Shown here piece by piece: positions 28,902 to 51,083 of a stretch of DNA of 64,000 nt; position 1 is the first letter of the stretch; each line of letters starts with the position of its first letter. The stretch covers positions 1 to 64,000 of the forward strand of contig CASDWH010000002.1 of the NCBI GenBank assembly GCA_949284715.1, read 5' to 3'. The notes under the pieces were generated by a model. That model was not told the DNA's origin, made no database searches, and worked only from the letters and a program-made list of their open reading frames with translations. The position numbers and the translations under genes were made by a program. The DNA is from an uncultured bacterium (lineage in GTDB: Bacteria > Cyanobacteriota > Vampirovibrionia > Gastranaerophilales > Gastranaerophilaceae).

Positions 28902-29201
28902 TTATAACAAAGCACAAATGTCTTGATAAGTAGTGAGAACTCTTGAGATAAACAAGTTGTTATTTTCTACTCTATACGCTATAACATAACGCTTTTTTAC
29001 TATATAAAACCTATAATCTTTATAAGTAAAATCAGGTCTTTTTATGCCGGATTCAGGAAACTTTGTTAATCTGCGACATGCTTTTAACAGCAAATTCAAA
29101 TGTTTTTCAGCGGCTTTAACGTTATCTTCGGCAATAAAATCGGAAATTAAATCCATATCATTATATGCCTGTTCGGTAATAATAAGATTTAAATCATTCA
29201 T
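28902..29201 (-). CDS. parE: ParE/RelE-family toxin
   Basis: The 99-residue product (start ATG 29201, MNDLNLIITEQA) has the ParE/RelE fold pattern. There are two N-terminal helices (DLISDFIAEDN and KAAEKHLNLLLKACRRLTKFPESG), then strands ending RFYIVKKRYVIAYRVENNNLFISRVL. ParE members poison gyrase and RelE members cleave mRNA on the ribosome; which applies is not clear. Its start overlaps the antitoxin gene by 8 bp, the normal arrangement. Confidence 0.85.
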   Translation of the reverse strand: MNDLNLIITEQAYNDMDLISDFIAEDNVKAAEKHLNLLLKACRRLTKFPESGIKRPDFTYKDYRFYIVKKRYVIAYRVENNNLFISRVLTTYQDICALL

Positions 29202-29439
29202 ACTTAGATAAAAGTTTTTTAAAAGCAGTTTCGCCATCCATCACTCTGCCTGCTTTTATATCATCCTCACCCTTTTGAAGTTCGGCATTAAATGCATCGA
29301 TACGTTCCTGAGGAACAGACTTTCTTAATTTTAGAAGATTCATTGCTTCCTGGACAATATCATTTACAGAACTATATAACCCTGTAGCCATCTGTTCTTT
29401 TATAAATTTATCAAAATCACTGCTTAAAGATATATCCAT
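29194..29439 (-). CDS. parD: ParD-family antitoxin
   Basis: This 81-residue protein matches ParD. The ribbon-helix-helix N-terminus is MDISLSSDFDKFIKEQMATGLYSSVNDIVQEAM, given here in outline only. The acidic/charged tail wraps the toxin. It precedes and overlaps parE and probably represses the pair. AGAGGT lies before the ATG. Confidence 0.87.
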   Translation of the reverse strand: MDISLSSDFDKFIKEQMATGLYSSVNDIVQEAMNLLKLRKSVPQERIDAFNAELQKGEDDIKAGRVMDGETAFKKLLSKYE

Positions 29440-31565: not shown

Positions 31566-31802
31566 CGGATATCGTAGTCCAAAGAGCAAAAGGCTCTGCA
31601 TAATTTCACTGATAATACCAAATTTACAGTGTATTTTTAGAAATCTACAGGGAAATTTGAGAAATATTGAAACTGTATAACAGCTATATTAAGCTTTTTT
31701 AGTTACATTCCCTAAATATACTAACAGGGAATAAACAGCGTATGTATTCAATTTAACCATTTGTAAAAAATCAAAATATCAGTTGACTTTTTTAATCCCG
31801 AA

Positions 31803-31921
31803 TCAATAATTCCAACTACTTTTATCAGGGAAACAGGTTCTTCGCTTAACTATCCCGACCGACATATGGCTTCATTTTTTTCATTTACGTATTCAATGTC
31901 AAAGTATAAAACCTTTTTCAT
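31803..31921 (-). pseudogene. frameshifted fragment of an exonuclease-like ORF
   Basis: Directly behind the helicase gene, an ATG at 31921 with AGGAG 5 bp upstream reads MKKVLYFDIEYVNEKNEAIC and then hits TAG at 31850-31852. Moving one base into another frame continues VGIVKRRTCFPDKSSWNY to TGA 31803. FDIEYVN...IC-x-VGIV resembles the first block of DEDDh 3'-5' exonucleases (FDxEY...IxQIGI). It is therefore probably the 5' remnant of an exonuclease gene co-transcribed with the helicase. A sequencing indel would not rescue a full gene. Confidence 0.5.
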
Positions 31922-31932
31922 ATTTACTCCTA

Positions 31933-34900
31933 TTAAATTGCTTCTGCACTTGCGACTAAATTTTTTCCTGTATCAATACTATTTATGTGATTTATCAGTT
32001 TATCGAGTTGTTTTTGCGGATTTTTGAACCAATCAGTCGACCATATTCTATAAATTTTCCAACCTAAACTTTCCAAAACTTCCTGTCTAAGTCTATCTCT
32101 ATCCCTTGCAGTAGCACAAGAATGATACGCAGCTCCGTCACATTCAATTCCTAATAAAAAGTGTCCAGGATTATCCTTGTCTCTTATAGCTAAGTCAATT
32201 TTGTATCCAGAACAACCAACCTGTGATTTAACGGAATAGCCTTTTTCTCTTAATGCATTACATACAGATTCTTCAAAAGGAGAATCAAAATTATCATCCG
32301 CACTGCTTGTAATACTTTGTTTTAATGCAATTTCTCCCCGTTCTGCAAAATCTAAATACCATTGAAGAAGCTGTACTCCTCTTTTATTTGTCTTATCCAT
32401 GTTAAAATCAGATGCTTTAATTCCGCTGAAAACTTCTACCATATTTCTAGCACGGGTAATAAGCACATTTAAACGTCTTTCTCCACCATCTTTATTAATT
32501 GGACCAAAATTCATTGGAAGAGTGCCGTTTTGATTTTTAAAATACCCAACGCTAATCATAATAACGTCTCTTTCATCTCCCTGAATAGATTCTAAGTTTT
32601 TTACAAAAAAGTATTCAGATTTGTTATCACTGAAAAAGTCTTCACAACTTGGATCTTGTTCTCTTAATTTTTCAATTTCGGCTTCAATAAGGCCTTTTTG
32701 TTTAATATTCAATGTTGCCACACCCAAGGATAGATCAGGATGTTTTTTAGCATGTTGCATAACAGCTTTAGCAACAATCTGAGCTTCTTCTAAACGCTTA
32801 TTTTCTTTTGTCGTATCCGTTGGTTCATGATAGAAGAATTTTATTCCTAAAATTTCACTATCTTCAATACAGCTTGGAAAAGTATATAATTCCTGATATA
32901 AATGTTTGTTTGAAAATGCAATTAAATACTCGTGTTTGCTTCTATAGTGCCATTTAAGCATACATTGAGGAAAACCTGACGTTGTACATTCATCTAAAAT
33001 ACTATCCAAGTCAACTCTTTCAGACTCATTGTTATTGTCTGTATCTTCATCTTCAACCTCCTCATCATCACTGTCGACTACTGTTTTAAAGAAGGATGTT
33101 GGAGGCAATTGTTTTGTATCACCTGCAACAACAAGCTTTTCGCCTCTTATGATTGAACCGATACAATCTTCTGTTGTTAATTGACTTGCTTCATCAAATA
33201 TTACAACATCAAATTTAAAAACTTCAGGGTCAAGTAATTGTGCAACAGTTGAGGGACTCATCATCAGACATGGTTTTAATGCTAAAAATAAATGTGGTAT
33301 GCTTTTTACCATTTGTCTTAAAGATTTTCTGAATCTTTGAAGTTTACCAAATCGTTTTAATTCGTTGGTTTCTTTATTGAATTCTTCTTTTGCAAGCATA
33401 GCATTAGATACAAGTTTTGATATTAATCGCACCTTTGCAGATTCTACTTGATTTTTATCAAGATATTTAAATTCTTTCACAAGATTATCCTGATCCAAAG
33501 AATTAAAAACTTTTAAACTTGGTATATTTTTGAATACATAACCGTTTAGCCATATTCTTAAGAATTGCGTTTCAAAAGCTTTATCATATTCTTCTATCGG
33601 AATGTTGAATTCTATACATTTATTGAAAAATTCTACAAGATCTGCATCAATTATCTTATCATAGATGTTTAGATATTTAAACCATAAAGTTAAATCTTCC
33701 GAAGAACCTAAAATAGCGGATATTTTTTCTTTTAATTTTAGGAATGCAACTTCCTCATAGTTATGTGAAAAAGCTTTCGTGCAATCCAATTTTGTAAGTT
33801 TGCTTATTGCATCGAAATTTATTTTTAAATCACTGCTGAAATTTGTAATTTTTTGAAGAAGATTTTGAATTTTGTCATAATTTATTCCTTCAGAATTTAA
33901 TTTAGTAAGAATATCTCCATTGAAATACTTTCCAGATTCTATAAGTTCTTTAAATTTTAATAAATATTGACTCTTGTTTTTAATATTGTTTTCATTCGGA
34001 TTGTTCTTATCCCAAACATTATCGTATAAATCAGTTGCAACAGTATCGCATTCTTCCAGTTTTTCTATCCAGTTTTTCAGTTCTTTAATATTATTTAAAT
34101 CGTTAACCAATTCATCAAGATTTGGTTTATAATTATTCGTATAATATGTTTTTATAAATTTACAATCTCTATAAAATTTAAATGAAATTCTTGAGAAAAA
34201 TTTGTCCCTGTATATTGAAAATTTTTGTATCAAATTTTCAATGTCTTCATTTAAAATCCCTAAATTATATTTGTCTCTGATTCTGTTTTTATAAATATTA
34301 AATTGTTTAACAGTATTGCAAATTAGCTTAATATCATTAGCCATTTTTGTATTATTTTCAGCAATATTATCAAGTGCGGAATTCGGTATTTGTAAAACTA
34401 TATTGGCAATAGCAATCAAATTTTGAATTTGTGAAATTTTAACAATATTTTTTGTTAAAAGATACTCTTGTAACTCTCTGATATTTTTAGTTAAATTATC
34501 AAGGGTATCTAAAAAACTTTTTAAATGTTTTTTTAGTTGAATTTTTTCTTCAAATTCAATATCACGAATTTCACATCCATACCAAGGGAAAAGTTGTGGA
34601 TTTCCCAACCTTTGTAAAATTTCTTTTATATCTTTAAACAAGTTTTTACAGTAGGAAAATTTTTCTAAATTCCAATTATTATAATCAGTAAAAATATATT
34701 CAAAATCGGGGATTGAAGAATTATGTAAAACTGTTCCAATTGCATCAAAAGGTTTATAATTTAATACTCCAACCGGAGTATGTAATTCATTAGTATATGT
34801 TTTCAATGATTTTATATCAGATGCTAATTTAGATAATGATCCTTCATCGTAATCTCCAGTATAGTTATATTCAAGTGTATTTATTAATTCATCAATAACT

Positions 34901-36201
34901 CTTTTTCTGTTTGTCTTATTACTGTGCAATTCAAGACAAAACGGTGCAAGACCATTTTTATCTAACCTGCTTTTTACAACATCTAAAGCTGCAATTTTTT
35001 GACTTACAAATAAAACCCTTTTATTTTGGGATAATAATTCTGCAATAATATTGGCAATAGTTTGACTTTTTCCTGTCCCTGGAGGTCCTTCAATTACAAG
35101 ATTATTCCCTTGCTTTACTACTTGAATTGCCTGCTGCTGTGAAGAATCAGCATCTAAAATTTGGTAAGTATTTTGAGGTTTTACTCTTTCATCTAATTCT
35201 GCTAACGGACATATAGCATCCGTTGAAACCTGTTTTTCCTCATTCAAACCACAGATGGTTTTTACTAAATCGTTACTCTTAATTAAAGATTGATAGGTGT
35301 CAATATCTTTATACATCACAAATTTTGCAAAAGAAAAAAGCCCTATATATATATTATTTAGAAGTTTCCATCTTGATTGTTGTTTTATTTTTTCTTGTAC
35401 TTTCGAGAAAATCTCAATAGGATTTATCACGTCTTCATCAAAATGGATATCTTCAAGATTAATTCCAAAATCACGCTTTAACTTTAAGGTTAAAGCCGGA
35501 TTTAAGATGATGGAATCTTCATTATATTTAATTGTATAAGGCTGTCCAATACTTTTTCTTTTTATCTCGATTGGAATAAGTATCAAAGGGGCTTCAAGTT
35601 TTTCATCGGAATTATCAGCTTCATACCAGATTATACTACCTAAAGCTAAAAACAATACATTGTAACCCAAATCATCATTTGTAGATTTTGCAGTTGTACT
35701 AATCTTACCAAGTGCTTTATTCAAATCTGTTTGAGAGAGTTTTGTTTGTAAATATTTATCAAGATGCTTCTTTTCAAGGTTATCAATTTCATACTCTTTA
35801 AACTCTTGTATCTTAAATTCAATTCCCTCATTAAGTTCTTCTAATGATTTCTTTTCTTCTTCCGGGATTTCAGAATCATTAACTTTAACTGGTAAAAATT
35901 CCATTGTTTGCAGATTTTGCACTAATGCCCTATATACTTCAGGTGGTTGTTCATCAATTATACGAATAGTGGAGAATTTAGAAAATTTAAAACTTAAAAG
36001 ACGATTTCTTTTGGATAAATCAATTAATTTTTCTTTCCATTTATAAATACGTTTATCAATACTCTTTTCTTGTTTTTGCCCAACTTTTGATTGTTGAGAA
36101 TTTGCATGCTGATATTCTTCAGGCACATCTGTTTTAAATCCGCAATATTCACAAAATTTGGAATAATCAGCTATATCTTTACCACAATTATTACATTTCA
36201 T
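31933..36201 (-). CDS. zinc-ribbon / DUF4011 / SF1 helicase / REase fusion, candidate defence protein
   Basis: This 1422-residue protein has a zinc ribbon (CNNCGKDIADYSKFCEYCG, residues 3-21), then a DUF4011 region (KWKEKLIDLSKRNRLLSF). An SF1 helicase follows, with Walker A GPPGTGKSQT near 375, Walker B FDEASQL near 1000, GDTKQLPPTSFF and QGDERDVI. The C-terminal MTES_1575-type restriction-endonuclease domain (KIDLAI...GIECDGAAYHS, near 1340-1375) is complete. Long coiled-coil segments split the helicase lobes. Related giant helicase-nucleases occur in defence islands and are thought to cut foreign DNA. It is monocistronic apart from the exonuclease remnant behind it. Confidence 0.85.
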   Translation of the reverse strand: MKCNNCGKDIADYSKFCEYCGFKTDVPEEYQHANSQQSKVGQKQEKSIDKRIYKWKEKLIDLSKRNRLLSFKFSKFSTIRIIDEQPPEVYRALVQNLQTMEFLPVKVNDSEIPEEEKKSLEELNEGIEFKIQEFKEYEIDNLEKKHLDKYLQTKLSQTDLNKALGKISTTAKSTNDDLGYNVLFLALGSIIWYEADNSDEKLEAPLILIPIEIKRKSIGQPYTIKYNEDSIILNPALTLKLKRDFGINLEDIHFDEDVINPIEIFSKVQEKIKQQSRWKLLNNIYIGLFSFAKFVMYKDIDTYQSLIKSNDLVKTICGLNEEKQVSTDAICPLAELDERVKPQNTYQILDADSSQQQAIQVVKQGNNLVIEGPPGTGKSQTIANIIAELLSQNKRVLFVSQKIAALDVVKSRLDKNGLAPFCLELHSNKTNRKRVIDELINTLEYNYTGDYDEGSLSKLASDIKSLKTYTNELHTPVGVLNYKPFDAIGTVLHNSSIPDFEYIFTDYNNWNLEKFSYCKNLFKDIKEILQRLGNPQLFPWYGCEIRDIEFEEKIQLKKHLKSFLDTLDNLTKNIRELQEYLLTKNIVKISQIQNLIAIANIVLQIPNSALDNIAENNTKMANDIKLICNTVKQFNIYKNRIRDKYNLGILNEDIENLIQKFSIYRDKFFSRISFKFYRDCKFIKTYYTNNYKPNLDELVNDLNNIKELKNWIEKLEECDTVATDLYDNVWDKNNPNENNIKNKSQYLLKFKELIESGKYFNGDILTKLNSEGINYDKIQNLLQKITNFSSDLKINFDAISKLTKLDCTKAFSHNYEEVAFLKLKEKISAILGSSEDLTLWFKYLNIYDKIIDADLVEFFNKCIEFNIPIEEYDKAFETQFLRIWLNGYVFKNIPSLKVFNSLDQDNLVKEFKYLDKNQVESAKVRLISKLVSNAMLAKEEFNKETNELKRFGKLQRFRKSLRQMVKSIPHLFLALKPCLMMSPSTVAQLLDPEVFKFDVVIFDEASQLTTEDCIGSIIRGEKLVVAGDTKQLPPTSFFKTVVDSDDEEVEDEDTDNNNESERVDLDSILDECTTSGFPQCMLKWHYRSKHEYLIAFSNKHLYQELYTFPSCIEDSEILGIKFFYHEPTDTTKENKRLEEAQIVAKAVMQHAKKHPDLSLGVATLNIKQKGLIEAEIEKLREQDPSCEDFFSDNKSEYFFVKNLESIQGDERDVIMISVGYFKNQNGTLPMNFGPINKDGGERRLNVLITRARNMVEVFSGIKASDFNMDKTNKRGVQLLQWYLDFAERGEIALKQSITSSADDNFDSPFEESVCNALREKGYSVKSQVGCSGYKIDLAIRDKDNPGHFLLGIECDGAAYHSCATARDRDRLRQEVLESLGWKIYRIWSTDWFKNPQKQLDKLINHINSIDTGKNLVASAEAI

Positions 36202-36357: not shown

Positions 36358-36370
36358 TGTTGGTTATAAT
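36342..36370 (+). promoter_or_regulatory. type-2 island promoter motif, AAA ATPase gene
   Basis: CCGGAA, GTGACA, 11 bp, TATAAT. The motif ends 21 bp before ATG 36392 and is preceded by TGT, as in the rtcB and WYL copies. Confidence 0.65.
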
Positions 36371-36391
36371 GTTCATTGAAAGGATATGAAA

Positions 36392-38479
36392 ATGGGCTTA
36401 TACTTTGAAGACTGGCTCGCAGATTGGCAAGATAAACAAAATGCATGCAAAGGGTATTACTTATTTACGGCTTTTGAAAAGTTTAAGCTTTGCTATTATT
36501 TAGTATATTTGTTGGATTTTGTTGAACTGTGTAATAACGGATTTAGAGATCAATATTATGAAAATTTAATATCGGTTTTGAAACTTGATAAAAATAAATG
36601 CCCAAAATTAGGGAAATTCCCTAGCAAAGATGAACGATATGAATACGAATTGAAATTCAAAAAAGAATTGAGATTAATTTTAAAAGAATGTTGTGTAAAA
36701 TACGCAAAGCAGGCTCAGAAAAGAAAAACGCCTCTGGAAAATAAACTGGAAATAATAAGTAATTTATATCTGTTAGATGATGTTGAAAAAGGGTACCTGA
36801 CGTATTACGTTCTAAAAGAAGTCAATTCTCTAATAGGTAGAATAAATGGATTTTATGATATTACTTTTCATGATTTTGAAACATTCGGAACACAGTGCTT
36901 AAGGCTAAAAAGTTGGGTTATACCACAATACCGCAAAAAACTATTAGGTAAAGGAATCTTTATAAAGCGTGGGATAAATGATGATAAAATTTACTTAAAT
37001 CAAAAAATAATCCAAGTTTTTTCTGATCCTGATATTAAAACAGAAACTCAAATAAAAAACATTTTACTGGGCAAAAACCAAAAGTCTGAACTTAATTGGA
37101 AAGATTTTGACCATTTGACAAAAGAGCGGGATATTGCTTTGAATATTCTGACATCAGCTATTCAAAATCACTCAAAAGGCATAAATATTTTGCTTTACGG
37201 CTCTGTCGGAACAGGTAAAACTCAGTTTGCAAAACTTATAGCAAACAAAGCAAAATGCGATATGTATTCAGTTGCCGTAGAATTTATGGACAAAGAAGCT
37301 TCCCGAAAAGACCGCTTGAGCGATTTATCCTCAAAACAAACAATTCTTTCAAAATCTTTGAACTCCTGCCTGCTTTTTGATGAAGCCGAAGATGTTATGA
37401 ACAGAGGTTTTACGGAATTTGGCAGTGCATCAAAGGCTTACTTGAACACTTTGATTGAAGAAACACCTATTCCGATTTTCTGGACGACAAATAATATTTA
37501 TGATGTTGATCCGGCGTTTTTGCGTAGAATGACTTATACTGTCGAGTTTGAAAAATTGACAGATGACATCCGCCTGAATATTTGGAAACGGGTTATTCGC
37601 AAAAACAAATTTAAAATAGATAACAAAAAACTTGTGGAATTAAACAAAAATTACGAAATCCCGCCGTCATTGATTACGAATGCAGTTAAAACAACAAAAC
37701 TTATTAACGGTAATCAAGATGATTTTGAGGTTTTTGTTGAAAATGTTGCAAAAGTTGTGACTAAAAAGAAAAATGTCAAAAAGAAGAAAGAGTTTGAAAT
37801 GAAAGAATATAATGACAATTTGGTAAATACGGATTTGGATATAAAGGATTTGACCGCAAAAATAAAATCTTGCGGAAAAGTAAACTTTTCACTTTGCCTT
37901 TATGGAGAACCCGGGACCGGGAAAAGTTTATATGCAAGGTATTTAGCTAAAGAACTAGGGGTTGAGGTAATAATGAAGCGTGCAAGTGATTTAATGTCCA
38001 AATATGTTGGCGAGACAGAACAAAATATTGCAGATGCATTTGCCGAAGCCAAATCTAAAAAAGCAATGTTGATTTTTGACGAGGCAGATTCATTTTTACA
38101 AAACCGAAGTAATGCCGTAAGAAACTGGGAAATCTCACAGGTTAATGAGATGCTGACGTGGATGGAATCTCACGAATATCCGTTTGTTTGTACGACAAAT
38201 TTGCTTGACACGCTTGATGAAGCAAGCTTGAGGCGGTTTACGTTCAAAATTAAATTTGATTTTATGACAAAAGAACAGGTGAACACTGCATTTGAGCATT
38301 TTTTCGGGATTAAAAATGCGGATGTAAGTATAAAAGGTTTAACAGCCGGTGATTTTGCGACTGTGAAAAAGAAAGCAGATTTTTTATGTATAACTGATTT
38401 AGATGAACTTTCCAAGATGCTTGAAGATGAAGTTAAAATTAAAAAATCAAAAGAACTACAGAATGTTGTAGGATTTTAA
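36392..38479 (+). CDS. tandem AAA+ ATPase
   Basis: This 695-residue protein has a helical N-terminal part (1-230) and two AAA+ modules. The first has Walker A GSVGTGKT near 268 and Walker B LLFDEAED. The second has GEPGTGKS near 507, DEADSF and arginine-finger candidates in ASLRRF. The second module, with YVGETEQNIADAF, is of the classical Cdc48/FtsH-type clade. It is an energy-driven remodelling enzyme with unknown substrate. ATG 36392 is preferred to 36386 because AAGG is 8 bp upstream. It carries both island regulatory motifs and ends exactly where the convergent fic gene ends. Confidence 0.75.
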   Translation: MGLYFEDWLADWQDKQNACKGYYLFTAFEKFKLCYYLVYLLDFVELCNNGFRDQYYENLISVLKLDKNKCPKLGKFPSKDERYEYELKFKKELRLILKECCVKYAKQAQKRKTPLENKLEIISNLYLLDDVEKGYLTYYVLKEVNSLIGRINGFYDITFHDFETFGTQCLRLKSWVIPQYRKKLLGKGIFIKRGINDDKIYLNQKIIQVFSDPDIKTETQIKNILLGKNQKSELNWKDFDHLTKERDIALNILTSAIQNHSKGINILLYGSVGTGKTQFAKLIANKAKCDMYSVAVEFMDKEASRKDRLSDLSSKQTILSKSLNSCLLFDEAEDVMNRGFTEFGSASKAYLNTLIEETPIPIFWTTNNIYDVDPAFLRRMTYTVEFEKLTDDIRLNIWKRVIRKNKFKIDNKKLVELNKNYEIPPSLITNAVKTTKLINGNQDDFEVFVENVAKVVTKKKNVKKKKEFEMKEYNDNLVNTDLDIKDLTAKIKSCGKVNFSLCLYGEPGTGKSLYARYLAKELGVEVIMKRASDLMSKYVGETEQNIADAFAEAKSKKAMLIFDEADSFLQNRSNAVRNWEISQVNEMLTWMESHEYPFVCTTNLLDTLDEASLRRFTFKIKFDFMTKEQVNTAFEHFFGIKNADVSIKGLTAGDFATVKKKADFLCITDLDELSKMLEDEVKIKKSKELQNVVGF

Positions 38480-39577
38480 TTATTTACGCAAAAGATAATG
38501 TGTAGCTCTACCTTTACCCACTTTTTTCATTATTTTTTTAGCAATAAGATCATTAATGTCTAGCGAAGCAGTATCTTGAGAACAATTACACATTTTCGCC
38601 CACTTTGTTGTTGTAAGATTGCCTTCAAAATTATCCATAAACCGATTTAGAACTTTAATTTGTCTTTCGTTAAAAACTAAATTTGAATTTTTCTGCCAGA
38701 ATTCTGCTTTTTGCAAAACTTTATCGGTAATTTCTCCGCTTGATTGAATAGCAATAAGAAGATTTTCCAAAAACCATAAAAGCCAATTTGTTATATCCAT
38801 TGAACCTTTTTGAGTTTTTTCCAAAACTTCATAATAGCTTTTTCTGTTTTTCTGGATTTGCGAAGACATAGAATAAAATCTAAATTTGCTGTCATCACTT
38901 CTTGCAAGAATCATATCCGTTAAGGCTCTTGCAATTCTCCCATTACCGTCATCAAACGGGTGCAAAATTACAAACCAGAGATGCACAATGCCGGCTTTTA
39001 TCAAAGAATCATATTCATTGTCTGTATTTATATAATTTAAGAATTCATTCATTTCTTTTTCTAAAATTAAAGCAGATGGAGCTTCGTAATGGATTTTTTC
39101 TTTTCCCGCATAACCTGAAATAACCTGCATTGGTCCAAGTTCATCATTCCTGTAATTTCCTACATTGATTTTGTACATTCCGCTGAAACCTGTCGGGAAA
39201 AGTGCAGCGTGCCAGCCTATAAGTCTTTCTTTTGTCATATTGGATGAATAATTTTGAGTTGCATCAAGCATCATTTCGACAACGCCCTCAATATCTCTTG
39301 AAACAGGTGTTTCGCCGCCAATGTCTATACCGAGTCGTCTTGCAATAGATGAGCGAACCAAATGTTTATCTAAAATTTGTCCTTCAATTTCAGATGATTT
39401 AATAATATTTTCTGTCAAAACCTGTAATAGAGCGTTGTTCTTGACATCAAAACCTAGAGAATCCATTTTACCAAGTAAATACCCTTGTGATTTTTTGATT
39501 TCTAACAATAAATTCTGAATTTTTTCTCCGCACCATCTAAAGCTGTGCCAGTCTGTATTTTGATATATATATATCAT
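38480..39577 (-). CDS. fic: Fic-family AMPylase with DUF4172 N-terminus
   Basis: Fic proteins transfer AMP (or another nucleotide) to target hydroxyls. The 365-residue product begins with the DUF4172 helix region (YIYQNTDWHSFRW). The catalytic loop HPFDDGNGRIAR has its His at 206. A self-inhibitory motif S-x-x-x-E-G at residues 61-66 (SSEIEG) makes it a class II, intrinsically restrained Fic. A C-terminal winged helix is likely. The start is ATG 39577 with GGAG upstream. Such genes are common conflict-island cargo. Confidence 0.92.
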   Translation of the reverse strand: MIYIYQNTDWHSFRWCGEKIQNLLLEIKKSQGYLLGKMDSLGFDVKNNALLQVLTENIIKSSEIEGQILDKHLVRSSIARRLGIDIGGETPVSRDIEGVVEMMLDATQNYSSNMTKERLIGWHAALFPTGFSGMYKINVGNYRNDELGPMQVISGYAGKEKIHYEAPSALILEKEMNEFLNYINTDNEYDSLIKAGIVHLWFVILHPFDDGNGRIARALTDMILARSDDSKFRFYSMSSQIQKNRKSYYEVLEKTQKGSMDITNWLLWFLENLLIAIQSSGEITDKVLQKAEFWQKNSNLVFNERQIKVLNRFMDNFEGNLTTTKWAKMCNCSQDTASLDINDLIAKKIMKKVGKGRATHYLLRK

Positions 39578-39601
39578 GCTTTCTCCGAATATTATACGGA
39601 T

Positions 39602-39631
39602 ATTATACCACATTTTTTCCGAATTATGCAA
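39602..39631 (-). promoter_or_regulatory. sigma70-type promoter of fic
   Basis: TTGCAT (39626-39631) and TATAAT (39602-39607) are 18 bp apart on the minus strand. A second TATAAT at 39591-39596 and repeated TATAATATYCG blocks suggest an operator overlapping the start site. Confidence 0.6.
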
Positions 39632-39646
39632 GTTTATCTAAAAATA

Positions 39647-40321
39647 TTATTTATTAAATTTATAGATTGATTGTATCTTTGTTAACTTAAGCTGTTCAAT
39701 TCCTCCTATGGAATTAACAGACGGAGAGGATAGATGTCTCTGAAAATTCTCATCCGTTATTTGATACAAGGTTTTATTTTTATTTAATTCTGAACATAGT
39801 TTTTCTATTATTGAATCTATATATGGTATATTTTGGGGTAATTTCCCCCAACACAATACAACTTTTTCTGGTAAATCATCAAAATTTATTTCACACTTAT
39901 AGTTCTTCAAATATTCTTTTGTATAATATTTGCAAACAAAATCTGCTCCGGAAATTCTTATGGGAAATAAGTTTAAAACAATAATTTTATTATATCCTTC
40001 TTTATTCGCAAATTTGATAGCATTTCTAACGGTGTCATCGCTGTTTTGGGGATTTGCAAAACTTGGGTTAAACATTATAACCCCCAAAGCTTTTTCAGAA
40101 TTTTTAGATTCTGAGAGCCAACTTGCAATTAATTTTGTTCGATTTTTATAGCAAATACCATCGACTTTAACTTTTTCTTCAAAATTAATTTTTTTACCCT
40201 TATTATCATAAAATTTTTGAATTTGTTTCAATTCTTCTTTATTAAAGGTGTCACTAAAAGAAGCATCTACTTTGACATCTAACAATTTATTCTTATCAAT
40301 TTTTATCTTCCAGGAATACAT
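39647..40321 (-). CDS. DUF1643 protein, copy 1
   Basis: This 224-residue cytoplasmic protein has the DUF1643 core. R-T-K-L-I-A-S-W leads to IMFNPSFANPQNSDDTVRNAI, then VLNLFPIRIS, and a CWG segment comes near residue 165. The family is of unknown biochemical role and is common in mobile and defence regions. GAAAGGAA precedes the ATG. Both island motifs lie upstream. A second DUF1643 gene lies directly upstream in the same orientation. Confidence 0.8.
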   Translation of the reverse strand: MYSWKIKIDKNKLLDVKVDASFSDTFNKEELKQIQKFYDNKGKKINFEEKVKVDGICYKNRTKLIASWLSESKNSEKALGVIMFNPSFANPQNSDDTVRNAIKFANKEGYNKIIVLNLFPIRISGADFVCKYYTKEYLKNYKCEINFDDLPEKVVLCWGKLPQNIPYIDSIIEKLCSELNKNKTLYQITDENFQRHLSSPSVNSIGGIEQLKLTKIQSIYKFNK

Positions 40322-40403: not shown

Positions 40404-40458
40404 TTAATCGCTCCTGTTGCAAGATGTTTCAAGGCTTATGACACAAAAAGTATCAATA
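40404..40458 (-). promoter_or_regulatory. type-1 island element, copy B
   Basis: On the minus strand: TTGATA, TTTGTGTCA, six bases, TTGAAA (40427-40432), 17 bp ending TTGCAACAGGAGC, then GATTAA (40404-40409). It overlaps the last codons of DUF1643 copy 2. Confidence 0.6.
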
Positions 40459-41166
40459 AATGTTTATTGGGTATAGATGCAGCTTATGGTTGTTGTCATA
40501 TACTTTTTTTCGACAAGATATATGGAAAGGTTCTCTACTACTATAGAAAGTCATTAAATTTGTAGATTTGTCTTTTAATAACTTTAATAAATTTTCTTTA
40601 TTTTTTCTGAATTCTTTATTTACACCATATGCAATAATAAAATCTTTCGCAATTTTTGATTCTAAATATTTTTGTATAAAACTTTTATTATCTTTTTGCT
40701 TAAATTTAGTCATAATTTTTCTATTATTTTGTAATATCTTTTTTAATTCACTTGGCTTATGATGTCTATAAGAAAATAAGTTGATTACAGCAAAATATTG
40801 ATAACCTACATTTTCTTTATAAGTTACTCTAGTAGCCCATTTTCTAGCCTTATCCATAGTTTGGTCAGATTTTTCGCTTCTAGCATAGGACGGATTTAAC
40901 ATAATGTATGTTAATATTCCCTTTCTATCAATACACTTATTATTTTTATCATCTATAATTTTTTCGATGTATAAATATCTGGAATGAGGTTCATTAGTTA
41001 CATCAAAATTTTGTAGACATTTCTCGTTAATATATCGCTCAAATAATTGTTTTTTTTCATCAGCTGTATAGGTTTCTTTTGAAAATACTATAAAACCTGG
41101 CCTGTCTTGGAGATCTACGATTTTATAATTATCAAATTGATGTTTAAGATCTTTCAATAATTCCAT
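40453..41166 (-). CDS. DUF1643 protein, copy 2
   Basis: This 237-residue diverged relative of the neighbouring DUF1643 gene shares IMLNPSYARSEKSDQTMDKA and VINLFSYRHHKPSEL. It has a more basic C-terminal half than copy 1. I start at ATG 41166 (MELLKDLK), 6 bp after a near-ideal GGGAGGT; codons upstream in the same frame are leader. A TATAAT at 41189-41194 and type-1 element A serve it. Function is unknown. Confidence 0.75.
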   Translation of the reverse strand: MELLKDLKHQFDNYKIVDLQDRPGFIVFSKETYTADEKKQLFERYINEKCLQNFDVTNEPHSRYLYIEKIIDDKNNKCIDRKGILTYIMLNPSYARSEKSDQTMDKARKWATRVTYKENVGYQYFAVINLFSYRHHKPSELKKILQNNRKIMTKFKQKDNKSFIQKYLESKIAKDFIIAYGVNKEFRKNKENLLKLLKDKSTNLMTFYSSREPFHISCRKKVYDNNHKLHLYPINIY

Positions 41167-41212
41167 TATATTACCTCCCATTTTGATTATTATATGCTGT
41201 ATTTTTATTCTA

Positions 41213-41268
41213 CTCATCGCTCTTGTTGCATACGTTTTCAAGTCCAATGACATAAAAAGTATCATTGT
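41213..41268 (-). promoter_or_regulatory. type-1 island element, copy A
   Basis: On the minus strand: TGATA, TTTATGTCA, six bases, TTGAAA (41236-41241), 17 bp ending TGCAACAAGAGC, then GATGAG (41213-41218). It is very similar to copy B over 50 bp. Confidence 0.6.
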
Positions 41269-43381: not shown

Positions 43382-44341
43382 ATGGAAGATAAACCAAGAT
43401 ATTCAAGAGTTTCGGATATTATTGATCTGATAATTTTCATGCTTTCAAAATTGAATGGAGTTTCTTTGAATGATATTCAGGAACGTTTTGGAGTTTCCAG
43501 ACGTACGGCGGAAAGAATGAGAGATAGTGTTTTGTCTATATTACCGCAGGTTGATGAAATAGCAACAGATGAACGTTGCAAACGCTGGGGGTTTACAAAT
43601 TATTCTTTGAATGAATTGGTTTATTTTTCAAATGAAGATATTGCGTTTTTAGAAAATTTAAAACCTGCTTGCGATAAAATGTCACAAACCGAGCTTGATG
43701 AAATTTTGACAAAAGTTAAAGCTCTTAAATATAGGCATACAAAAATTGATGAAGCACAGATTGAATTACTGCTTCAGTCTGAAGGGTATGCGGTTCGCCA
43801 GTCACAGAATTATAAAGTTGATTTGAATATTGTTTCTGTCATTCGTCAGGCGATTAAAGAAAACAGAAAAATCCAGGCTGAATACAAAGATAAAGTCAGG
43901 ATTTTAGAGCCTCTTGGCTTAATTTACGGGGAAAAAGTGCATCTGATTGCGAGAGAAGAAGCAAAAGGGCAGGACGAATATAACTATGTTTTACATAAAC
44001 TTAAAAACGTTGAAATTCTGGCAGAGAAATTTGATCCGAAAGGTTTTGATTTGCAAGAATTTTCTAAAAAATCTTTTGGCGTTTATTTCGGTGAAATTTA
44101 TGATGTTAAATTAAAATTCATACCGGAAGCAGCGGAAGATGTTTTGAACTATAACTTCCACCCAACGCAAAAAATGAAGCAGCAGCCTGATGGCAGTGTG
44201 ATTGTAACTTTTAAAGCAAGCGGCGATAAACACATTATGTGGAACCTTTTCAAATGGGGATATGCAGTCGAAATCCTCGCTCCGAAAGTGTTAAAAATGA
44301 AATATAAAGATTATATTGATGAGATTAGAAAAAATTTTTAA
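43382..44341 (+). CDS. WYL-domain transcriptional regulator
   Basis: This 319-residue regulator has an N-terminal winged HTH (VSLNDIQERFGVSRRTAERMRDSV, residues 24-50), a WYL ligand-sensing domain from about 150 (AIKENRKIQAEYKDK...EPLGLIY) and a WCX dimer domain. WYL proteins control defence systems in response to nucleic-acid ligands. The motif at its own promoter is shared with six other island units, making it a candidate regulon controller. It overlaps the convergent terL gene by 4 bp. Confidence 0.88.
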   Translation: MEDKPRYSRVSDIIDLIIFMLSKLNGVSLNDIQERFGVSRRTAERMRDSVLSILPQVDEIATDERCKRWGFTNYSLNELVYFSNEDIAFLENLKPACDKMSQTELDEILTKVKALKYRHTKIDEAQIELLLQSEGYAVRQSQNYKVDLNIVSVIRQAIKENRKIQAEYKDKVRILEPLGLIYGEKVHLIAREEAKGQDEYNYVLHKLKNVEILAEKFDPKGFDLQEFSKKSFGVYFGEIYDVKLKFIPEAAEDVLNYNFHPTQKMKQQPDGSVIVTFKASGDKHIMWNLFKWGYAVEILAPKVLKMKYKDYIDEIRKNF

Positions 44342-45813
44342 ACAAGTTTGCCAAAACCTGAGCTTTTAAATCGAACATATTTTCTTGCTTGATATTCTTC
44401 CGATTTTACATAGTTTGCCATTGCATTAACTCGTTCAAGTGTTGAAGTTACAAAAGTTTTTTGCTTACGTTCAATAATTAATTGCGAAAATGCATCAACC
44501 TGATCATCATGTCGTCCGTACGGAAATGATACTATTTCAGCTCTAAAATCGTCTAACCAGGAAGCATTTCGTTTTAAAAAGATCTTTCCGTATTCCAATG
44601 GTTCGGATGCATAATTGGCTCTTATTTCTTTTGAATCTTTCGGAGTATATTTTATTGGATAAATCCCTCTTTGTGCAAGAGTCTGTAATAAAAATTCCGT
44701 ACTTGTTGTAGCTTCAATAATCATATTTTTACATTGAAACATTTGTGACCGGCACATTATTTCTACAGGCAAGTTTGCAATATCAATTTTTTCTCTGTAA
44801 ATATCTGTTATATAGATATTTCCTTCGTGTTCAACCGCTGTAATACATACGGTATAATCATTATTCCGTCCTGTTTTAAAAGCTATATCCCAACTTTGAA
44901 ATACTGTTCCGCCAGACGGGACTTCATCAAAATACTTAAATTTATTGAAATCAAGAATATTTCCTTTTTCCGGAATCGGTTCTTGCATATACTGTGCGTA
45001 AAAATTATAATTACTCATTGTCTTTTGAAGTTTTAATATTTCTTCAAGTGGTTCTATCTCCGGACATAAGACCTCACCGGCGTTTATGGTAATTTCTTTT
45101 CCGTTAGATAAAGTGTAAGTTTTATCTGAATTAGCTATGGCAGGTAATGACAATACTTCCCAACCATCCTGTTTTAGCAAATGTGCGGTTAAATCATCAA
45201 GGTGTAAACGTTGCATTACAAGAATAATTACACCATCATTTTTGTTATCAAGTCTGGAAGATAATGTATTATCGTACCATTCGTTTACGCTTTCACGTAT
45301 TGTTTGAGAAAGTGCTTCGTCAGCTTTAATCGGATCATCAATTATTATGTATGTACCTCCAAAGCCAGTTAATGTACCGCCTACAGATGTTGCATAACAG
45401 TAGCCATTTTTAGTTGTTTCAAGCAGGTTTTCTGTTTGTTTATTAGGATTTAATCTTGTTGCAAAAGTTTCTTTATAAAAATCTGAGTTCATCAGCTTTT
45501 TTCTGTCTCTTGAAAATTTATTTGCCAATTCTTGAGAATAACTTACGCACAGAATTCTTTCATTTGGATTTCGCCCAAGTAACCATGCTGGCAACACTAT
45601 TGATGCAAGAAGTGATTTCATTTTTCTTGGAGGAATATTAATTATCAATCTCTTTATTTTTCCTTCTGCACACTGCTGCAATTTATCTGTCATAATTTCT
45701 AAATACGCTGCTGGAATAAATGTTTGCGAATTATCAACTTCGTAAAATGATTTTTGCACGAATGTATAAAAATCAGATCTCATTGCAGCTTGTAAAATTC
45801 TTTTATCATCCAT
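44338..45813 (-). CDS. terL: phage terminase large subunit
   Basis: TerL is the ATPase-nuclease that packages phage DNA. The 491-residue product has a variant Walker A PPRKMKS near residue 62, and a Walker B and catalytic carboxylate in YIIIDDPIKADEA near 157. The C-terminal RNase H-like nuclease has its first Asp in SWDIAFKTGRNNDYT and a later RHDDQVDAFSQ. It is intact. It forms an operon with DUF5681 (sharing 1 nt) and a ParB-methyltransferase gene. No portal, capsid or tail gene is found in the window. Confidence 0.92.
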   Translation of the reverse strand: MDDKRILQAAMRSDFYTFVQKSFYEVDNSQTFIPAAYLEIMTDKLQQCAEGKIKRLIINIPPRKMKSLLASIVLPAWLLGRNPNERILCVSYSQELANKFSRDRKKLMNSDFYKETFATRLNPNKQTENLLETTKNGYCYATSVGGTLTGFGGTYIIIDDPIKADEALSQTIRESVNEWYDNTLSSRLDNKNDGVIILVMQRLHLDDLTAHLLKQDGWEVLSLPAIANSDKTYTLSNGKEITINAGEVLCPEIEPLEEILKLQKTMSNYNFYAQYMQEPIPEKGNILDFNKFKYFDEVPSGGTVFQSWDIAFKTGRNNDYTVCITAVEHEGNIYITDIYREKIDIANLPVEIMCRSQMFQCKNMIIEATTSTEFLLQTLAQRGIYPIKYTPKDSKEIRANYASEPLEYGKIFLKRNASWLDDFRAEIVSFPYGRHDDQVDAFSQLIIERKQKTFVTSTLERVNAMANYVKSEEYQARKYVRFKSSGFGKLV

Positions 45814-46181
45814 TATTTTGCATTCCTTTCAATGAAATCTTTAAGAATTTGTGCATCTTCTATTGATAAATCGGCTTCAATGTCTTTTGGTTTTATCGGT
45901 AAAGAACTCATAATACTTGTTACAAGTTTTATTGATGCAGCATTCCCGTTAAGAGCATTTGTTATAAGCCTTTTAATCAAAGCTCGCTGTTTAGTCATCG
46001 TCTTAATATTGCCACCCTCTTTTAAGGTTATAACTTCTTCCAACTCATCTTGAAAGTCTGATTTAAAATCTTGAATTAGTTTAGGTCTACCTTTGGGGTT
46101 TCCGCTAACTCCAGGTTTGAATTGATATTCCTTTGGAGGTTTTTTATATCCGACTTCATAATCTTTATTTGTATCTGTCAT
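45813..46181 (-). CDS. DUF5681 protein, probable terminase small-subunit-like
   Basis: This 122-residue protein has the DUF5681 signature YQFKPGVSGNPKGRP at residues 20-34, followed by helices and an RALIKRLITNALNG segment. Members lie next to TerL in phage-like elements and are thought to serve as small-terminase or DNA-recognition partners. Its stop overlaps the terL start, which supports cooperation. Confidence 0.82.
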   Translation of the reverse strand: MTDTNKDYEVGYKKPPKEYQFKPGVSGNPKGRPKLIQDFKSDFQDELEEVITLKEGGNIKTMTKQRALIKRLITNALNGNAASIKLVTSIMSSLPIKPKDIEADLSIEDAQILKDFIERNAK

Positions 46182-46184
46182 TAT

Positions 46185-47444
46185 TTATTCTCCTATATTA
46201 CCTATAAATTCGGCATTTTTACCTGTGAGTGTCTCAAATCTATGGATTATAATGTCACAGTAATGCGGATCTATTTCGATCAATCGAGCACTGCGTTGAA
46301 TTTTTTCGGCGGCAATAAGGGTTGATCCGGAACCGGCAAAATTATCAAGAACTATGTCGTTAGGCTTGGAACAATCTATAAGTGCATCCATTATTAATGC
46401 ACAAGGCTTTGGTGTAGGGTGCCATTTAAGCAGTTCTGCAGCTTGAGGATTTGAAACATGCATTCCTTGATATGTCCAAATATTTGTTCGATAACGCCCA
46501 TACGTTCCTAACTGAATATTATTTACATGAGGGGCTGTGCCATTTTTGTAAACAAATATCATTTCATATTGTGACCTGTAAAGACTACCAAGCCCCGCAG
46601 TTATTTTGTCCCAGATACATACGTTTTTGAGTTCATCAAAAACTGAATTGCCGGCGGTTATAATTTCTTCAATATGTTTCCAGTCCATACACCCGAAATG
46701 AATTGAGCCGTCTGTTGAAAATTCTTTTATTAATGTCATAGCTGTTTTTAAAAAAGCTGTGAATTCAGCTTTAGTCATTTCGCCGGATGCTTGATGAAAT
46801 TCTTTATGATGCTTTTTCGTTGTGACGTTTCCCTGTATTTTAACGTTATAAGGGAAATCCACAAATGAAATATTTGCTTTTTCATCATTTAAGAGAAATT
46901 CATAAAATTTACGTTCTGTAGAATCCCCATTTACAAGGATGTGTCTGCCTAACTTCCACTTATCACCAAATTTGGAACGGGCTTCAAGCACTGAATCCGC
47001 AGGTTGTTCATCTTCTGAATTATTTTCAATTACAGCATCATTTATTATAAGGTCTATTTCTGCAATATCAAATCCGGTTAAAGTTGTGTCATAACCGATA
47101 TCTGTCAAGTATTGAAGTTCAATTTTTAAAATTTCCTTATCCCAACCTGCCATTTCCGCGATTTTGTTTTCAGCAATTATAAATGCTCTAATATCGTCTT
47201 TTGAAAGATGTTCGATTTGGATAACCTGAATTTCTTCATATCCGAGTTCTTTTGCAACTTCATACCTTAAATTCCCCGCAATAATATTTTTATTCTGGTC
47301 AACCATTGGCGGATTAAGAATCTTGAAATGCTGTACCGCAGAGCATAATACATGTTTATTTTTTTCACTATGTAATCTTGCACTATTTTTATTCGGTTTT
47401 AAATCTTTAATTTTAACTGTAACCAGCTTATTAGTTATTATCAT
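46185..47444 (-). CDS. ParB-domain / DNA methyltransferase fusion
   Basis: This 419-residue phage-type protein has a ParB/Srx-like N-domain (KIDLKPNKNSARLHS variant; IAGNLRYEVAKELG, residues 5-90). A beta-class adenine/cytosine-N4 methyltransferase follows. The catalytic motif IV reads DFPY (VDFPYN) rather than DPPY. TPKPCALIM and the SAM-binding NFAGSGSTLIAAEK come near the end. D-F-P-Y is an unusual substitution at a catalytic loop. It leads the terL operon and probably modifies element DNA. Confidence 0.85.
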   Translation of the reverse strand: MIITNKLVTVKIKDLKPNKNSARLHSEKNKHVLCSAVQHFKILNPPMVDQNKNIIAGNLRYEVAKELGYEEIQVIQIEHLSKDDIRAFIIAENKIAEMAGWDKEILKIELQYLTDIGYDTTLTGFDIAEIDLIINDAVIENNSEDEQPADSVLEARSKFGDKWKLGRHILVNGDSTERKFYEFLLNDEKANISFVDFPYNVKIQGNVTTKKHHKEFHQASGEMTKAEFTAFLKTAMTLIKEFSTDGSIHFGCMDWKHIEEIITAGNSVFDELKNVCIWDKITAGLGSLYRSQYEMIFVYKNGTAPHVNNIQLGTYGRYRTNIWTYQGMHVSNPQAAELLKWHPTPKPCALIMDALIDCSKPNDIVLDNFAGSGSTLIAAEKIQRSARLIEIDPHYCDIIIHRFETLTGKNAEFIGNIGE

Positions 47445-47666: not shown

Positions 47667-48209
47667 ATGCTTGAGAACACAGTTATAATCGGAGTTGGCA
47701 GGGGCGGCTGCAATGCTCTATCTAAAGTTAAACTCAAAATCGAAAAACTTTTCGTTGATACGGATAAGAATGTTGTTGAAAAGTATTCCGGTTTTTGTAT
47801 CGGTCTAAAAACCTGTAACGGATTATCCACAGGCGGAGATGTTGTTAAGGGGGAATTAGCTCTTAGGGAAAGCAAATTACAGATTTTGGACAGAATAGGA
47901 AAGTTTTCAGACTGGATTATTATTGCTCCTCTTGGCGGCGGAACATCTTGCGGTGGGTCAAAACACCTCGTTGATTTGGCTCTGGATAACTACAAGTCCG
48001 TAAAATTTCTGACAAGCCTGCCGTTTGAGTGGGAGGGAAACCGTCGCAAACACCATGCGGTTGAAACGATTTCGTATATTGAAAATTTGTGCGAAGTCAT
48101 CACTGTTGAATTTGATTCTAAAAAATACCCGGCTCAAATCAGCATGACTGATATTTTTAATCTTTTGGATGAAAAATATATGGAGGCTATTGAAAAGATT
48201 TGTGTTTGA
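47667..48209 (+). CDS. FtsZ-like GTPase-domain-only protein 1
   Basis: This 180-residue protein aligns with the nucleotide-binding half of FtsZ. It has GVGRGGCNAL (9-18), VDTDKNV, TNG-like NGLSTGGD, a tubulin signature GGGTSCGG (90-97, canonical GGGTGTGA) and LPFEWEGNRR (118-127). It stops before the T7 catalytic loop (NVDFAD in the host FtsZ) and has no C-terminal domain or anchor peptide. It should bind GTP but not support polymer-driven hydrolysis. AAGGAGG precedes the ATG. It heads a unit run with DUF2924 and a WG-repeat gene. Role unknown. Confidence 0.8.
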   Translation: MLENTVIIGVGRGGCNALSKVKLKIEKLFVDTDKNVVEKYSGFCIGLKTCNGLSTGGDVVKGELALRESKLQILDRIGKFSDWIIIAPLGGGTSCGGSKHLVDLALDNYKSVKFLTSLPFEWEGNRRKHHAVETISYIENLCEVITVEFDSKKYPAQISMTDIFNLLDEKYMEAIEKICV

Positions 48210-49505: not shown

Positions 49506-51083
49506 ATGATAAAAGTTTTAAAATGTGCCATATATACAAGAAAATCATCTGAAGAAGGTCTAGAACAGGATTTCAATTCTCTTGATGCACAGCGTGAGGC
49601 CTGCGAAGCATATATTAAATCGCAAAAACATGAGGGATGGGAGTTAGTCGACAAACAATATAATGACGGCGGCTTCTCGGGTGGAACAATGAATCGTCCT
49701 GCGTTTCAGGAACTTTTGGAAGATGTTGAAAAAGGCGAGATTGATGTCGTTGTTGTTTATAAAGTTGACAGATTGACACGCTCGTTGATGGATTTTGCAA
49801 AAATCGTTGACGTCTTTGATAAACACGAAACTTCGTTTGTATCTATAACTCAGCAATTTAATACAACAACGTCAATGGGCAGATTAACATTAAATATTTT
49901 GTTATCCTTTGCTCAATTTGAACGTGAAGTGACAGGTGAAAGAATTCGGGATAAATTTGCGGCATCAAAGAAAAAAGGGATGTGGATAAACGGAAAGCCA
50001 CCAATGGGTTATATTAAAGTAGACGGTAAACTGGAAATAGAACCAAGTGAAGCCAAAACAGTTAAACTCATTTTTAGTAAATATCTTGAAATTGGAACTG
50101 TTCCGGACTTAATAAAATACCTTCAGGAAAATAAAATTTATACCCGCAGCGGCAAAAACTTTTATAAGGGGCATTTGTACAAAATTCTTTCAAATAAAAC
50201 TTATATCGGGAAAATTGTGCATAAAAACAGTGTTTATGGTGGTTTGCATGAGCCAATAATAGATTTTGAAATTTTTGAAAAAACACAACGGCTTTTAGCT
50301 CAAAATGCGTTAATACGCAAAAATTCTACAAATGCCGCAAGTGGTTCGTTATTAAAAGGAAAACTTTTTGACGATAAAGATAATTATATGTCGCCTACTC
50401 ATAGTAATAAGCAAGGTAAGCGTTATCGTTATTATGTAAGCCAAGCACAAATTCAAAACCGCTCACAAGATATCGGTTCTGTTTCCAAAATATCTGCTGG
50501 TGAAATCGAAAACTTTGTTACAGAAAAAGTTAAAGAATTTGTATTTAATAAAAAACTTCTGCAAAAATTGTTTACAAATTATTCTGTAAGTCAGCAAAAA
50601 ATAATTTTTGAACAAATTGAGTCCAAACAAATCAATGCAGATTTTATAAGACACATGCTTATTAAAGCAAAAATTTCAAGCCAATCAGTTTTGATAACGG
50701 TTTCAAAAACACTTACAAAAGAAGCAGTAGAATATATGATTTTCGGGACTCATCTACCGGTTGAACAAAAATATGACAAAAATTCTTTAGTAGAATTGGA
50801 TTATAAAATCCGAATAAGTTCCACAACAAAAAACGGAAGCAAGTTGATTATTGGCGATGTTAAACAAAAAACGGTTAATAAAATTCTTCTTGATGCAATC
50901 GTGAAAAGTTTTTATTACCACAAACTAATGTTTGAGAATAAATTAACCTCAGAACAAAAAGCCAATACTCATATTTACAGGTTGATGAAACTGAGGTTTT
51001 TGCCTAAAGACATTATTAAAGCTATTTTGACAGGTTCACACGAACCAGACTGGACAATTGATAAATTGTATACATTTTTATAA
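49506..51083 (+). CDS. large serine recombinase
   Basis: This 525-residue site-specific recombinase has a resolvase catalytic domain (1-145) with the nucleophile Ser14 in YTRKSSEEG, FSGGTMNRPAF, VYKVDRLTRS and FEREVTGERI. The recombinase domain (GKPPMGY, then 170-260) and a C-terminal coiled-coil/zinc-like region follow. Such enzymes integrate or excise phages and islands at att sites without host factors. GGAG is only 1 nt from the ATG, so translation initiation is unusual. It is the likely mover of this element. Confidence 0.92.
   Translation: MIKVLKCAIYTRKSSEEGLEQDFNSLDAQREACEAYIKSQKHEGWELVDKQYNDGGFSGGTMNRPAFQELLEDVEKGEIDVVVVYKVDRLTRSLMDFAKIVDVFDKHETSFVSITQQFNTTTSMGRLTLNILLSFAQFEREVTGERIRDKFAASKKKGMWINGKPPMGYIKVDGKLEIEPSEAKTVKLIFSKYLEIGTVPDLIKYLQENKIYTRSGKNFYKGHLYKILSNKTYIGKIVHKNSVYGGLHEPIIDFEIFEKTQRLLAQNALIRKNSTNAASGSLLKGKLFDDKDNYMSPTHSNKQGKRYRYYVSQAQIQNRSQDIGSVSKISAGEIENFVTEKVKEFVFNKKLLQKLFTNYSVSQQKIIFEQIESKQINADFIRHMLIKAKISSQSVLITVSKTLTKEAVEYMIFGTHLPVEQKYDKNSLVELDYKIRISSTTKNGSKLIIGDVKQKTVNKILLDAIVKSFYYHKLMFENKLTSEQKANTHIYRLMKLRFLPKDIIKAILTGSHEPDWTIDKLYTFL

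Follow-up and report, generated by a model that had tools for sequence, protein, structure and literature searches.

Helicase-nuclease gene and the remains of an exonuclease gene

The DNA studied here comprises the first 64,000 nucleotides of contig CASDWH010000002.1 (assembly GCA_949284715.1, an uncultured gut bacterium of the Gastranaerophilaceae), and this whole 64-kb stretch is called the window below. Its reverse strand carries a single large gene for a DUF4011 helicase-nuclease, and directly behind that gene lies the ruin of an exonuclease gene (Table 1). The results point to a helicase-nuclease that probably stands alone, followed by a slot with exchangeable occupants.

The earlier note on this DNA had described a 1422-residue protein joining a zinc ribbon, DUF4011, a superfamily 1 (SF1) helicase, and a restriction-endonuclease-like domain, all with intact motifs. 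Pfam searches and an alignment of 30 homologues bore this out, with the ribbon scoring just under its cut-off. The C-terminal nuclease domain scored 136.2 bits (MTES_1575, PF18741, cut-off 38.2), AAA_11 and AAA_12 scored 74 and 45 bits, and further P-loop matches were also obtained. Walker A, Ia, II, III, V, and VI and both nuclease motifs were intact in the window protein and agreed with those of the 30 homologues. The acidic nuclease residues (Asp of IDLAI and Glu of ECDG) were kept in 30/30 aligned rows; the four Cys residues of the zinc ribbon occurred in 8/30, all within the two closest groups. Walker A, II (DEAx), III, V, and VI, as we take the SF1 motifs to be labeled, place the protein among the Upf1-like SF1 helicases, and the closest solved chains by sequence were SMUBP-2 and Upf1/NAM7. 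The insert between motifs Ia and II was mostly helical in a low-confidence model of the 936-residue core (predicted template modeling score, pTM, 0.40). The DUF4011 fold model (298 residues; predicted local distance difference test, pLDDT, 37.6; pTM 0.26) was not used. An excerpt of PMC3710099 describes the MTES_1575 domain as a Vsr-family nuclease joined to an SF1 helicase.

The ruin begins with an ATG at 31921, 11 bases past the helicase stop, preceded by a Shine-Dalgarno-like TAGGAG just upstream. Its reading ends at an in-frame stop in codon 24 (31850-31852). Comparison was made with the intact gene at locus L001 (Gastranaerophilales contig CALUPW010000013, G019:C13). The start showed 68% protein identity over 28 residues, the first 92 bases were 83% identical (expect value, E, 2e-23), a second short piece of about 28 bases was kept, and a 46-base BRCT piece was 93% identical (E = 8e-16). 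The gene end together with the downstream DNA was 92% identical over 216 bases. As its pieces match the intact gene at these E values, the ruin is not a chance reading frame, and the view that a well-initiated frame here starts like a DEDDh exonuclease was correct. Relative to L001, about 14, 1072, and 114 bases are missing and a one-base indel lies near position 100. Only 23 codons are readable ahead of the stop, the two later motifs are deleted, and no complete catalytic domain is left. The proposed frameshift after about 22 codons therefore held as to the break, not as to its nature: the in-frame stop and the internal deletions rule out a simple frameshift. The ruin also extends slightly beyond 31803, where the earlier note had set its left border, to about 31753.

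A search of the window's own genome for an exonuclease elsewhere returned only an ordinary DnaQ-type match (E = 1.6e-8) and the ruin itself. A candidate second relic near 36370 (VGYNVH-like, upstream of the AAA gene) was rejected at chance level (E = 0.28-0.57 in 350 bases).

At L001, whose helicase protein shares 99.6% identity with that of the window, an intact 457-residue exonuclease gene occupies the position of the ruin directly behind the helicase. Its product contains RNase_T (PF00929, 74.6 bits, cut-off 24) and BRCT domains. Motifs that we take to be those of the DEDDh class (DxE, D, and HxxxxD) were present in 6/6 intact exonuclease copies aligned. The contig of L081 (G374) begins within the helicase tail, and the exonuclease behind it is intact. 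The gene at L002 (helicase 97% identical) is damaged differently from that of the window: about 550 bases have been deleted in frame, taking the later catalytic motifs with them, and the BRCT region contains a stop. The exonuclease is thus intact in two of the four loci of its helicase group. An exonuclease gene does follow orthologues of the helicase, and the contrary prospect raised earlier, that none would be followed by one, is contradicted by the intact copies at L001 and L081.

The separate origin of the lesions in the window and L002 is suggested by the tree, because the intact L001 lies between them. Most of the helicase DNA agrees at 98-100% between the window and L001, but the figure is 94% in its first 300 bases, and shortly past the beginning of the ruin the identity declines. 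This pattern looks like recombination, and the ruin may therefore be older than the arrival of the present helicase allele.

Table 1. Positions in the window of the helicase-nuclease gene, the ruin, and surrounding features (residue numbers refer to the helicase-nuclease; ORF, open reading frame)
Feature	Position	Strand	Basis
DUF4011 helicase-nuclease	31933-36201	-	single intact ORF, 1422 residues, ATG start
Zinc ribbon, N-terminal, CxxC...CxxC, residues 2-23	36133-36198	-	Pfam 24.5 bits, cut-off 25
DUF4011 domain, residues 58-241	35479-36030	-	Pfam 135 bits
Walker A region EGPPGTGKSQTIANI, residues 371-385	35047-35091	-	homologue alignment
Insert of about 550 residues between motifs Ia and II	33322-34965	-	placed by homologue alignment
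Motif II VIFDEASQL, residues 1000-1008	33178-33204	-	homologue alignment
Motif VI RRLNVLITRARNMVEVFSG, residues 1242-1260	32422-32478	-	homologue alignment
MTES_1575 (Vsr-like) nuclease domain, C-terminal, residues 1309-1406	31984-32277	-	Pfam and motif alignment
Leftover 23-codon exonuclease start MKKVLYFDIEYVNEKNEAICRSG, ends in TAG	31850-31921	-	ORF reading and protein match
Entire exonuclease-BRCT pseudogene (start, BRCT piece, last codons)	31753-31921	-	alignment to L001 gene
Terminal signature of mobile element	31566-31592	-	flanking DNA beyond it differs between genomes
Two-AAA-domain ATPase, divergent from helicase gene	36386-38479	+	Pfam; phrog_10401, 288 bits
Fic protein (SoFic-like)	38480-39631	-	Pfam and PADLOC profile searches
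DUF1643 gene pair	39647-40321, 40453-41265	-	Pfam
RtcB ligase gene, phage type	42204-43325	+	profile and PHROG match
Terminase large subunit	44338-45813	-	profile and PHROG match
Small phage gene, between terminase and ParB-methylase	within 44338-47444	-	
ParB-methylase	46185-47444	-	profile and PHROG match
Serine recombinase, phage integrase type	49506-51083	+	profile and PHROG match

Occupants of the slot and their decay

The gene behind the helicase was read from translated ORFs at 21 distinct loci, window included, with helicases more than 50% identical or partial copies. These came from 14 usable loci among 18 database matches, a survey of 383 genomes of the window's family, and loci L023 and L081; L015-L018, which matched the first residues only, and the duplicates L019-L022 and L071-L074 were left out. 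An exonuclease was found in 4/21 loci (intact in L001 and L081, broken in the window and L002) and a potassium-channel-like gene in 6/21 (intact in L003, L004, L005, and L079, broken in L010 and L011). Neither was present in the remaining 11. Among these, a 166-residue membrane protein filled the slot at five Elusimicrobia loci (L007, L008, L009, L013, and L014), a presumably DUF2971-like protein at L023, two small ORFs at L075, and another gene at L006, where the contig ends; L012, L076, and L077 had no comparable gene. Only the two ends of the channel gene are left in L010. In L011 (8929-9700), a stop codon interrupts the selectivity filter of a channel gene 99.6% identical in DNA to that of L004, although a read error could account for it.

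The exonuclease is limited to a helicase group of 97-100% identity; in the sister groups, the slot is empty or holds a channel, membrane-protein, or DUF2971-like gene. ORF inspection found no exonuclease behind 15 more distant helicases (L024-L036, L078, and L080), nor was one found behind the seven annotated plasmid relatives (7 of 440 matching records). The exonuclease family itself occurs in 7/383 family genomes at E ≤ 1e-20, a limit under which the window ruin falls. A helicase precedes two of the six intact exonuclease genes. The other four (L082-L085) lack one, and two of them are flanked by a repressor-like gene on one side and a serine recombinase on the other (labels by eye). In a quick helicase tree, the exonuclease group nested beside the channel-bearing L003 and near other channel loci, which suggests that the channel preceded the exonuclease in the slot. 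L003 (JAMPCZ010000010) is labeled Muribaculaceae; the same gene stands at the same position in G438, of the window's family, and the label probably reflects a mistake in binning or naming.

Selection was followed through the ratio of nonsynonymous to synonymous substitution rates (dN/dS). For the helicase, dN/dS was 0.07-0.10 in pairs 75-95% identical and 0.09 between the window and L001; values with L002 (0.27-0.41) are unreliable because of few changes and a diverged N-terminus. Intact exonucleases gave 0.06-0.16 among four nearer copies, several distant pairs being saturated and yielding no value, and intact channels gave 0.10-0.14. Since these ratios are low, both kinds of neighbor look functional where they survive. 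The helicase was full length in 8/8 loci of the channel and exonuclease groups with the whole gene on the contig. The second gene was broken in 4/10 loci of these groups (the window, L002, L010, and L011), and the neighbor genes are thus lost more readily than the helicase (4/10 against 0/8).

The AAA gene was rejected as a helicase partner, being absent from the ORF lists of the channel-group loci. In the channel group (L004, L005, and L011), a second MTES_1575 helicase of 1012 residues and a DUF4236 protein lie upstream of the helicase. On a Hymenobacter plasmid (L109), a DUF4011 helicase lies near DUF4236 and ion-channel genes.

A mobile element carrying the helicase

The window and L001 share a block of about 8.6 kb at 96.7% DNA identity, and further stretches are shared at 87-97%, up to about 46 kb (L001 contig) or 50.4 kb (L002 contig) in the window. 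Yet the dxs proteins of the window genome and G019, a single housekeeping marker, are only 75% identical, and the two genomes belong to different genera; this discrepancy indicates that the element moved between genera. At E ≤ 1e-150, the helicase was present in 15/383 family genomes; the survey included six further congeners of the window's organism, all of which lacked it at this threshold.

A terminal motif was located within about 190 bases past the end of the exonuclease, and beyond it the flanks differ between genomes. The DNA found immediately behind a tRNA-Ser gene in the window comes after the motif in L002, L090, L097, and L104. With up to three mismatches, it occurred in 13/383 genomes, the reversed control giving 0. 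In L096 and L102, the genes on both sides look like ordinary chromosomal ones, and empty sites may therefore carry the motif as well. The motif marks one end of the element: no second copy was found within the 64-kb window, and the contigs of G019, G408, and G374 begin inside the shared block. Given the phage-type genes between the helicase and 51 kb (Table 1), we read the element as a degenerate prophage or otherwise phage-derived, the helicase and exonuclease being cargo carried at its end. No helicase relative was found among viral contigs.

Three observations concern the surroundings. Over roughly its first 200 residues, the AAA protein is 26-40% identical to its counterpart at L002 (3754-5808), and from about residue 300 the two are 92-100% identical; the N-terminal domain appears to be swapped or fast-changing. 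A ParE/ParD-like toxin-antitoxin pair lies at 28902-29439, just beyond the end of the element. A 180-residue ORF at 47667-48209, in the prophage-like block, matches tubulin/FtsZ GTPases and has no PHROG match.

Interpretation and closest known systems

The likely explanation is that the helicase-nuclease works by itself and is probably antiviral; the gene slot behind it would take changing occupants that it does not need, and the one in the window decayed by deletion. That the protein acts against phages, in the order given below, and independently of the second gene is our inference. The Upf1-like motor, with DUF4011 and the optional zinc ribbon, would engage and unwind foreign or abnormal DNA; with its mainly helical insert, it would load on invading DNA, and the Vsr-like nuclease would then cut the DNA engaged. 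The helicase-nuclease is terminal cargo of the prophage-like mobile element and probably guards the host against competing phages. The slot would hold a channel-like gene in the surrounding relatives and the DEDDh exonuclease-BRCT gene in the window's group. Since the exonuclease is group-limited, gives way to other occupants elsewhere, and, where intact, mostly occurs without a helicase in front, it appears to have been added late, to be replaceable, and to have been broken more than once, and not to be a fixed partner. The earlier note had left a choice between a lost partner and a protein acting alone. The ruin is indeed a lost exonuclease gene, and action alone is better supported than a lost two-gene system.

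Some points weigh against this explanation. The family to which the protein belongs, PDC-S37, is itself a candidate defense family, and the protein scores too low under the NCBIfam cut-offs to be named either ProA or Hhe, both anti-phage proteins. The intact exonuclease is under purifying selection and starts 11 bases behind the helicase, and a two-gene unit is possible in L001 and L081. Distant same-class homologues adjoin housekeeping genes such as rpsP and dapB, a setting that would also fit a housekeeping role in DNA repair. In several of the genomes behind L024-L036, the DUF4011 helicase has a stable location next to an oxidoreductase gene or to rpsP and dapB (gene labels assigned by eye), suggesting vertical inheritance there.

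A true two-gene defense, in which the helicase opens DNA and the exonuclease-BRCT protein digests it, would make the window's system dead or crippled. The placement, spacing, and constraint just mentioned speak for it, as do the matches of the exonuclease to PDC-S48 and CRISPR-associated DEDDh profiles. We consider it unlikely, given the restriction of the exonuclease to one 97-100% group, the independent lesions in two of four loci, a helicase that stays constrained, the different neighbors in other groups, and the four of six intact exonucleases without a helicase.

The exonuclease, channel, and membrane protein could instead be interchangeable accessory effectors of a core helicase-nuclease, each extending or switching the outcome (e.g., by membrane depolarization) and each prone to loss, being costly to the cell. 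Tight co-directional second genes in several groups are consistent with this idea, as are the two channel loci destroyed beside an intact helicase, one by the selectivity-filter stop, and the gene set of the Hymenobacter plasmid; accessory swapping in other systems is described in passages of PMC12799240. We nevertheless find it doubtful, as channel homologues in relatives stand alone, 3/21 loci have no such neighbor, and only one of seven plasmid loci has a channel. It also seems rather improbable that DUF4011 marks a modular defense core whose slot recruits the DEDDh-BRCT exonuclease, the voltage-gated potassium channel, and others, the burdensome effectors being repeatedly destroyed and the core kept. 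If the slot does hold effectors, a helicase-nuclease core would be linked to membrane-channel effectors.

A host enzyme of DNA repair or genome maintenance, carried on the element by chance, is very unlikely: the conserved housekeeping sites of distant homologues would suit it, as would the DUF4011 core gene that a portion of PMC10250203 reports beside a defense hotspot in every Pseudomonas aeruginosa isolate searched, but the helicase is patchy in the window's family and absent from its congeners at the threshold used, and it lies on a prophage-like element that moved between genera. The P. aeruginosa case shows a DUF4011 gene next to variable defense genes and is also a warning that some DUF4011 proteins may have housekeeping functions.

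Under the stand-alone reading, the broken neighbor is no mark of a dead system, but an optional gene of a mobile element beside a helicase still constrained. The near-identical natural variants, with the same helicase and a second gene that is intact, deleted, or stopped, offer material for testing the stand-alone action of DUF4011 helicase-nucleases.

Among known systems, the top PADLOC match was PDC-S37 (1350.7 bits, residues 46-1411, profile 4-1343 of 1550), a single-gene phage defense candidate that, like the window protein, is one large helicase-nuclease. The match is full length, and the window protein adds the N-terminal zinc ribbon and ends about 200 profile positions early. Against ProA (NCBIfam NF058533), residues 30-1414 match profile positions 339-1711 with 1262.3 bits, below the cut-off of 1500, and the protein lacks the first 338 and the last roughly 190 profile positions; our literature search found no publication that describes an anti-phage protein ProA. 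Hhe/HheA (NF042953; PADLOC PDLC02194) shares DUF4011, the Upf1-type SF1 helicase, and the Vsr-like nuclease with the window protein. The latter is about 400 residues shorter and scored 912.2 bits (NCBIfam, cut-off 2000) and 654 bits (PADLOC). The HEPN domain, presumably part of the name Hhe, was not among its 13 Pfam matches. Hhe is placed in SF1_Upf1 in the available part of PMC10925250.

Excerpts of PMC12904381 and PMC12278908 offer precedents in Nhi, a single-gene nuclease-helicase, and the Hachiman pair, both DNA-sensing helicase-nucleases. The likeness is one of mode of action only, a DNA-sensing helicase coupled to a nuclease as proposed for the window; their helicases belong to another family according to a section of PMC10925250. 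The L001 exonuclease matches phrog_192 in front, phrog_3989 over residues 200-455, PDC-S48 with 90 bits, and CRISPR-associated DEDDh profiles, the window copy being a pseudogene. No plasmid or phage record covering at least 80% of the intact exonuclease was found, and the literature found on phage defense candidates names neither PDC-S37 nor PDC-S48. The window protein is best read as a member of PDC-S37 near ProA and Hhe; to this known candidate defense family, the present analysis adds a changing and often ruined second gene.

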